NCBI GenBank assembly: GCA_030062745.1 | Contig: CP099843.1 | Location: 4,465,001 to 4,529,000 of the forward strand | DNA: 64,000 bases | Reading direction: 5' to 3' | Source of the DNA: Capitulum mitella | Taxonomy: Eukaryota; Arthropoda; Thecostraca; Pollicipedomorpha; Pollicipedidae | Part shown: positions 14,801 to 17,800 of the stretch, one piece after another | Numbering within the stretch: position 1 is the stretch's first letter | How the letters are laid out: each line of letters opens with the position of its first letter | Notes under the pieces: generated by a model | The model's database searches: none | What the model was told of the DNA's origin: nothing | What the model saw: the letters and a program-made list of their open reading frames with translations, nothing else | Translations under genes and position numbers: made by a program

Positions 14801-17800
14801 CTGCCCGGTCAGGTCCTTCGCTCTCGGAGCGCGCTGTCGCGTGGCGGAAGGTGTGCCGGCTGGAATTACCCCGGCGACCAGGCGGTGGGCCATTCTGATG
14901 ATGGAGGAAGGCCCGCGGAGACCGGCCGGCGCCGGTAACGTGCCGTGCCCTCATCGTTTCTGACTGTCTCCAGGCCGCCTCTGGGGTGTGCGAGTAATTG
15001 ACACGGTCGGCAGAAGCGGCACCATTGTACGTCATGGTCCATGTTGTGTTATTGCGCCGCCAGACGGGATATTTGTCGTCTGTTCCGCGCACTGGGCTCC
15101 GTTTCAGCCGCGTTCATTGGGGCAGAATTTTGACGTGTTAGGTGCTGTTAGAATTGACGCGGCGTGTAGTTGTTTCTGCTCACGTCGTCCGCAGCCGTTC
15201 GACTATGATTGGTGTTTTGCGTACTTGGCAATGGAAGACATGCCTCATAATAGACCAAAGACTGATTGCGCCGTTGCGATGCACTTACGATCCAGACGAG
15301 CCTATTTGTGTGTCATCGTCACTGCTACTTCGCTTATTGTTTATTGTAAGCCTTCCATGTGCCATGTGTGCCATGCGGTGGGCGCAGCGCACAGTCCTTT
15401 GGACAGGTCGTTACGGCAGGTCCAGACGGCGTCCAGCCAGTGATAACGAGAAAAGATTCCATGCGAAATCGTTTGGATCGTTACGCTACCGACCCTATTT
15501 TCCTTTTTGCGGAACTGCCGAAGATTGTCGCTAGAACGTTTCTTTTGACGTGTTGACGTGGTTTGTCTTCGTCCTGCTCCTGTCGCATGGTTGTGGCGTG
15601 GCCGGTCGCGGCAGGTCATTTACAGTGTCGGCTGACCGGCACCTCCTGCCCCCAGGTGGTCACCAACTCTTGCCTGCTGAAGGAGGTGGACCTGTGCACC
15701 ATCACCAAGGAGGAGCTGGCCTTCTCCGCGCCGTTTAGTCTGCAGGTCAGGCGGAACGATTACATCCAGGCGTTCGTCACCTTCTTCAACGTCGAGTTCA
15801 CCAAGTGTCACAAGCGGGTTGGCTTCAGCACAGGTTTGTGTCCCGTCGGACTGTTTGGTGGTAGCGATCGGGTGTTACTTTTGTTTGACGTGATCAAAGT
15901 AACCCAGAGTAAAGATTCTCGTAGTTCTTCCCGTCTTTTTTCGTAGTTTTGCGTAGCTTGACGAGCTCGTTGGTTTTGTTTTGTGCCGTGTGCCGTGTGA
16001 TGCGCGTATGTTTATTGTTCTTTTGTAAGTCTCCGTTCTCTTGACTGGTGGTTTGTTCAGACGTACTTGCTGTTGTTCACCAAACCGGGTTCGGCACCGA
16101 TCACGGCGGCTGCGTGACGAATACCAACCGCCGCGCTTCGTCCCTCTCACCTGTGCTCGATATCCGGGAGTGTCGGAAGGCGCGCCCCACGCTGCCGGGT
16201 GCCGTTACGACAGCACCATCGCGTGCCTGATGTCCCGATGTCCGCCGTGGTGCCGGTTAGCATGCTGGGACCGACTCGCAGCGGGGAGCGTCACCTCTCT
16301 TCCGCCGGCGCCGGCCCGGGGGCAGACCAGTGACACCGGCCCTCTGGGGTTTCAGCGCCGGCCGCGGCGTACACCCATTGGAAGCAGACTGTGTTTTACT
16401 TTGACGATTGTATCACGGCCAAGGTGGGCGAGCGGATCGAGGGCGTGTTCGCGTGCTCGCCGAACCCGCGCAACAACGTGAGTACCGCGCGGCGCCGCGG
16501 CCGCCGCGCGCGCTGACCTCTCGTGCGACCCACAGCGCCGGAGGCGCGCTACACCCACTGGAAGCAGACGGTGTTCTACACCACCGATTACCTTACGTGC
16601 AAAGTGGGAGAGACCGTCGACGGGGTCTTCTCCATGAAGCCCAACGCTAGGAATAATGTGAGTGTGGGCCCGGTGGCGTCGCCGTCGGCTGGCGGCCGCA
16701 GGCGGGCGCTGGTTTTGTGCAGTGCGACCGCCGCTGTGGTAGGTCGTGAAAGGAATGTTCTGGCGTGGTGGAGGCGTTGGGGGCGGCTGTTGTGTGGGGT
16801 GGGTGGGTGAAAGCCGTGGACGGGGAAGGGCCGGGAGGGTAGTTTTCCTTGCGTTTTTCCGAATGTTTTGGACGAGTTTGGGCAGTGTTGCTGTTTAAGT
16901 GAAAATAATCGGAAGTCTTGATGTACGTGGCTGCACAGGGCATACAGCTACGTCAGATGTTTGCGTGCTGACAGGTAGTATTTTACGTCAATTTTGGTGT
17001 TCGCATTCTCCTTCCAGTGTAAAACGAAAAATATGATAACGAAAGTGGAGCATGAAGGGTAACTGGTGAGATGAATATTCCCCTTGTTTACGTCCGATGG
17101 GTATTTTCCTCGACGAACAGTTTCTTGCGTAACGTCTTTCGTTTCGTGGCCAACGAGTCATTCCGGCACCAAAGCCGGCAGCGTTGCGTCAGTTCCGAGC
17201 GCCAGAACTTTGCTCGGGCTTTGAATCCTAACGCCTGCGGCTAGATTCTGTCGCCAGTGGGAGTATCCGTTCGTAGCGGCTTATGGGGTTATGACCTTGC
17301 TGAGGGTGATGAGGATGGGTCGTGCCACTAAGCTGACCTTGGTTGATCTTGGTAGGTTGGACCAAAGTTGATCTTGCCATTTATTCTATTGTGTTGGCAC
17401 TCTAGGTTTTCTGTTTACCTTCCGTGTCCGAACGTAATTTGGTCGCTTGTGTCGTCAACCGTGAAGCATGACCACTCGTGACCATAGTGACGGCTTCGAA
17501 GACTGAGATCAGTCCATGGAGAGCCCCGGTTTGCGGAGTATGTTTCCTTAAACCAGAACCATTTTCTGCGATGTCATCGCTGACCTTTAATGTTCCATCA
17601 GCATGGACTCCGGAAGGTCGCCGGTCGTGGTCCTGATTAACTTACGTGACCTTTGAGCCAACTGTGAAGTGCATGAGACAAATCACGATGCAATCATAGC
17701 CTGAAATGGGTTAACGAGGTCACTGTGAGCGGTCAGCCGTTGTAGGAAAGCGACTTTCAATGGCATTTTTCCGTGAGAACGGAAATGGTGTTCATTTGAA

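Follow-up and report, generated by a model that had tools for sequence, protein, structure and literature searches.

The locus described here raises the question of whether the active site of an arginine methyltransferase can be varied by the choice between two neighbouring exons. PRMT1 is described in PMC8619983 as the major arginine methyltransferase of mammals. Within a 64,000-nucleotide stretch of the genome of the barnacle Capitulum mitella (the window), a PRMT1 gene, referred to as gene A, carries two adjacent exons for the same catalytic segment, and an earlier note on this DNA had proposed that they form a mutually exclusive pair. We consider it likely that a tandem duplication of exon 7 in barnacle PRMT1 gene A gave rise to what is now an old mutually exclusive pair, which would yield two PRMT1 isoforms differing beside the substrate pocket.

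Structure and identity of gene A

The exons of gene A and the segment that separates the two versions of exon 7 are listed in Table 1. All eight gene A introns have GT-AG boundaries, and translation of the joined exons with either 7a or 7b alone gives a 358-residue PRMT1 ending in SYKMR. Both forms contain the double-E motif (a 13-residue segment) and the THW loop YTHWK, the motif names being those used in PMC8619983. Solved structures closest to the 7b form are PRMT1 chains, with 8z2z at E 3e-161, and the best two proteins for a 7a-form query are PRMT1-like, from Amphibalanus amphitrite (P0001) and Pollicipes pollicipes (P0002), at 94% identity each. Judged by these features, the source gene is a barnacle PRMT1, a type I arginine methyltransferase. 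Outside exon 7, the Pollicipes gene-A protein is the nearest (96% over 311 trimmed columns); by BLAST, the part outside exon 7 is 93.4% identical to Pollicipes gene A over 319 positions and 93.3% identical to Amphibalanus. The genome carrying gene A spans 477 Mb in 16 contigs.

Table 1. Gene A and its parts, in window positions
Feature	Position	Strand	Remark
PRMT1 gene A, start codon to stop codon	5859..18158	+	exons joined; homology to P0001
Gene A coding exons 1-6	5859-5876, 11361-11495, 12609-12828, 13235-13434, 14509-14628, 15656-15833	+	
Gene A exon 1	5859-5876	+	found by pattern
Exon 6, upstream splice partner	15656..15833	+	last base G opens the Ala codon
Exon 7a, divergent alternative THW-loop exon	16356..16477	+	kept in P0001 and P0002
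Spacer intron, 58 nt, 79% GC	16478..16535	+	branch-point-like CTGAC, 20 nt upstream of 7b
Exon 7b, canonical-like THW-loop exon	16536..16657	+	99 of 122 bases as in gene B exon 7
Exon 8, coding part	18075..18158	+	stop codon 18156-18158

Two minor features lie downstream. A donor-like GTACGT occurs at 18165 (window 18159-18170), six bases past the PRMT1 stop, where an intron in the 3' untranslated region is possible. Farther on, at about 20310-22000 on the minus strand, a neighbouring gene resembles TMEM165/GDT1, as judged by eye from its C-terminal peptide.

Two exons for one catalytic segment

The anatomy reported in the earlier note is confirmed in every particular. Exons 7a and 7b are each 122 nt long and of the same phase, with consensus splice sites (acceptors ...tttcag for 7a and ...cccacag for 7b, donor gtgagt for both), and each completes the Ala codon opened by exon 6 (G, then CG). 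The encoded 41-residue peptides are identical at 27 of 41 positions, and the 10-residue active-site segment that includes THW is intact and the same in both. At the nucleotide level, 80 of the 122 bases are identical and 42 differ; the Ka/Ks comparison between the copies, which the note had suggested, gives a dN of 0.294 and a dS of 1.86 (NG86).

It had further been claimed that inclusion of both exons, or of neither, breaks the reading frame, and this holds. When 7a and 7b are joined together, a premature stop is met within 7b, and when neither is present the frame is shifted and the normal stop is missed within the stretch translated. The mutual exclusivity of the pair, the central claim of the note, agrees with the matching length and phase, the frame penalty, the short spacer and the conservation of 7a; exclusive use itself is predicted from sequence. 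A search of introns 6 and 7 of gene A revealed no third copy; across these introns of genes A and B, tblastn and blastn gave weak matches at most, the best (E 0.048) lying on the opposite strand. A whole-genome search with P0004 likewise returned two exon-7 matches at the gene A locus and no other there.

Exon 7a in other barnacles

Had 7a been absent or broken in close relatives, as the earlier note pointed out, it could be taken for a decaying duplicate. It instead occurs in protein predictions from two other barnacles. Both P0001 (labelled 'isoform X2') and P0002, which are predictions known from protein sequence alone, carry the 7a version: each matches window 7a at 37 of 41 residues, compared with 29 and 28 of 41, respectively, for window 7b. 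The 7a form of the protein is thus already present in public predictions, and the name 'isoform X2' implies that at least one further form of the Amphibalanus protein was predicted by annotators. Outside exon 7, the Pollicipes P0002 model contains two small insertions that look odd. Because this class of peptide recurs in predicted proteins of two other barnacles, a chance origin is excluded. Pollicipes belongs to the order Pollicipedomorpha and Amphibalanus to the Balanomorpha; 7a therefore dates back at least to the ancestor they share. A tree built from 22 exon-7 peptides unites the three 7a peptides in one clade (support 100/99), whose long stem measures 0.65 and whose short tips measure 0.047-0.085. 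The history of 7a appears to have been one of change first and constraint since.

How far 7a departs from its family can be seen in a wider set of proteins. The YTHW segment was cut from 243 of 244 retrieved proteins, of which 237 remained after the barnacle-type P0001-P0006 were removed; these are a convenience sample, collected by similarity to the gene A protein and including environmental and fungal sequences. Exon position 3 is Glu or Asp in 227 of the 237 and Ala in none, Ala being the residue of all three 7a peptides. Position 19 is Tyr in 213 of 237 and Cys, Thr or Ser in the 7a peptides; position 34 is Met in 207 of 237 and Cys in the three 7a peptides, a residue also found there in 12 of the 237; position 35 is Lys in 187 of 237 and Ser in all three 7a peptides. 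In a simple simulation of an unconstrained 7a copy, run at assumed distances that are separate from the real DNA distance between the barnacle species, 43% of residues were kept on average at 0.4 substitutions per site. Of 4000 runs at 0.2 substitutions per site, 3 retained 37 of 41 residues; of 4000 at 0.4 or more, none did.

Resemblances to 7a also occur outside barnacles. The 41-residue exon-7 segment of the environmental protein P0121 is 7a-like at several positions (FDDCIT, FAC); this protein retains the family Asp at position 3, and its identity to gene A over the remainder of the sequence is 73.8%. Certain fungal PRMT1s have Ala5, Cys34 and Ser or Ala at position 35, as in 7a. The likeness of P0121 and of the fungal proteins to 7a is read as convergence.

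Exon 7b, gene B and the order of events

Exon 7b keeps the family residues at positions 3, 19, 34 and 35. A second PRMT1 gene, gene B, is found in the same genome on contig C4 and is like P0003 of Pollicipes and P0004 of Amphibalanus. It shares with gene A its exon layout and intron positions but has a single, 7b-like exon 7 encoding a 41-residue peptide; tblastn and blastn detected no second exon-7 copy within introns 6 and 7 of gene B. Compared with gene B exon 7, exon 7b has a dN of 0.126 and a dS of 0.714 (NG86; dN/dS about 0.18), so 7b is probably constrained too, as measured against this paralogue. The protein collection was clustered at 90% identity; the P0001 cluster has six members, among which an Amphibalanus 7b form could be hidden, and the P0002 cluster has one, so that no 7b form of Pollicipes gene A appears in the collection. 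Barnacle-type PRMT1-B is also present in environmental data, as the JGI environmental proteins P0005 and P0006 group with the barnacle gene-B proteins (100/99).

The relative order of the exon duplication and the gene split can be approached through the exon-7 peptides. The best trees place 7b with exon 7 of the B-type proteins (63/80, and 71/93 once the long-branch P0072 is dropped), and the rare residues T16, T17 and D29 are common to 7b and gene B exon 7, both here and in Pollicipes. The common FDD is kept in window 7a, compared with TTD in 7b and TTE in gene B of this genome. The grouping of 7b with B-type exon 7, together with the FDD kept in 7a, is suggestive of an exon pair that predates the split between genes A and B and of the loss of 7a from gene B. 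The alternative tree uniting 7a with 7b is nevertheless not rejected by the AU test (p-AU 0.151), and the two exons share a rare Val24, possibly through gene conversion; given this p-value and this shared residue, the exon duplication and the gene split could have come in either order.

How one exon could exclude the other

In the proposed scheme, the pre-mRNA would be spliced from exon 6 into one of the two versions, 7a or 7b, and from there into exon 8. Exclusion would probably be imposed first by space. The spacer measures 58 nt, compared with 406-5484 nt for the seven other gene A introns and 355-605 nt for six gene B introns. The 29 gaps between adjacent myosin-head exon matches in the same genome are about 193 nt or longer, a control biased by the fact that a short in-frame intron could pass as part of one match and go uncounted. 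The distance between the 7a donor and the putative branch point marked by the CTGAC in the spacer would be about 38 nt. The same motif stands 24, 29 and 21 nt before exons 3, 5 and 6, and the related GTGAC and CTAAC stand 23 nt before 7a and 18 nt before exon 8, respectively; no such branch-point motif occurs in the last 60 nt of the intron upstream of exon 4. The predicted fold of the spacer is not unusual for its composition, as 114 of 500 shuffles were equally stable. In alpha-tropomyosin, a branch point too near the donor blocks joining. Some arthropods do splice introns of this size, and spacing by itself may therefore fail to keep 7a from being joined to 7b; the frame penalty would then act as a second barrier, since double inclusion or double skipping ruins the reading frame. 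The use of both exons, this spacing mechanism and the functional difference between the isoforms are what we infer from the gene.

What the exchange would alter in the protein

Exon 7 encodes the THW loop together with the beta-hairpin that follows. The Amphibalanus protein with 7a, modelled by AlphaFold2 (mean pLDDT 80.9, pTM 0.78; 75 in the THW-loop block) has the PRMT fold, with human PRMT1 6nt2 as its top Foldseek match. In this model, the exon corresponds to the THW loop, which extends to residue 299, and to a hairpin of two strands (300-311 and 316-325). The differences between 7a and 7b fall just before the loop (PAAA versus PEAR) and along the hairpin. Judging from the order of the hairpin strands, the second strand should end (Cys-Ser versus Met-Lys) next to where the first begins, close to the loop. 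In PRMT1, the THW-loop residue H293 is reported as essential (PMC13184939), and phosphorylation of Y291 is reported to alter PRMT1 substrate specificity (PMC8619983). An altered substrate preference resulting from the exon exchange is plausible, and barnacles would most likely have two active PRMT1 enzymes that prefer different substrates or partners.

A more detailed version of this proposal is possible, although we would not rely on it. Thoracican barnacles may run a splice switch in the catalytic module of PRMT1, with a pair older than the A/B gene split of which gene B kept the canonical exon only. The rim of the pocket would be changed in the 7a form, which lacks a conserved acidic residue three positions ahead of YTHW and in which Cys-Ser replaces Met-Lys on the adjacent strand, and the two forms might serve different substrates by tissue or life stage.

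Weighing other explanations

The two exons might stand in the reverse relation, 7a being the normal gene A exon and 7b a rarely used leftover whose canonical function has moved to gene B. The only listed gene-A proteins of the two other barnacles do carry 7a, the Pollicipes one, the sole member of its cluster, is not labelled as an isoform, and gene B supplies a 7b-like form. However, 7b is intact, with good splice sites and the conserved family residues, its dN/dS against gene B exon 7 is low, and the Amphibalanus gene has by name at least two annotated isoforms, with a cluster large enough to conceal a 7b form; we therefore regard this relation as unlikely. It is less likely still that the pair mainly yields unproductive mRNA and tunes the level of PRMT1 rather than producing two enzymes. 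The stop in 7b upon double inclusion and the loss of the normal C-terminus upon double skipping would serve such a purpose, and the possible donor past the stop codon would add a downstream junction. Yet double inclusion is disfavoured by the 58-nt spacer, and the 37-of-41 conservation of the 7a protein across three barnacles would be left unexplained.

Decay of 7a could be argued from its departure from the family at four well-conserved positions, but these departures are common to three barnacles and unconstrained copies simulated at the assumed distances almost never keep as many residues as are kept here. This account is contradicted by the occurrence of 7a in P0001 and P0002; it was rejected and has very little left to recommend it. 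As for an artefact of assembly, nothing beyond the tandem layout speaks in its favour, while the copies differ at 42 of 122 bases and the diverged peptide is present in other species; being contradicted by the 7a peptide of other barnacles, it too was rejected and is scarcely credible.

Relation to known systems

Mutually exclusive exons arising by tandem duplication are well known, for instance in alpha-tropomyosin, arthropod Mhc and Dscam. As in these genes, the exons of the barnacle pair are adjacent, homologous and equal in length and phase, and only one fits the frame; the alpha-tropomyosin pair also has a short spacer. Unlike in these genes, the duplicated segment here belongs to PRMT1 and forms the THW loop of its active site, and its exclusive use is a prediction drawn from the DNA. 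The candidate novelty is the application of the familiar exon-swap principle to the PRMT1 active site. Confidence is placed in the exon anatomy and in the conservation of 7a, and splicing and function are regarded as predicted.

Alternative forms of PRMT1 are themselves familiar. According to PMC8619983, human isoforms v1-v7 arise from different first exons, differ at the N-terminus, and vary in activity and substrate preference; 58 further splice variants are mentioned in that source. Unlike v1-v7, gene A would exchange the THW loop and the following hairpin, not the N-terminus. The premise of the earlier note that PRMT1 elsewhere normally has a single form at this site agrees with a narrow sample, 6 of 6 species with two listed isoforms, in which the exon-7 peptides are identical between isoforms. 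The note also knew of no described equivalent, and in a limited literature search no alternative exons at this PRMT1 site were found by title or by the start of the abstract.

If the favoured reading of a mutually exclusive pair is true, splicing would do here what gene duplication usually does, and the conserved, swappable active-site segments would constitute a natural experiment on the role of the THW loop in substrate choice. The two predicted 358-residue proteins, differing at 14 residues, are directly testable. Elsewhere in the same genome (G000), myosin-head exon repeats (profile positions about 377-440) resemble the mutually exclusive exon clusters of the Mhc type, with four copies at C16:5450234-5453643 (-), three at C15:16425920-16428593 (+) and two at C14:17197973-17199021 (-).
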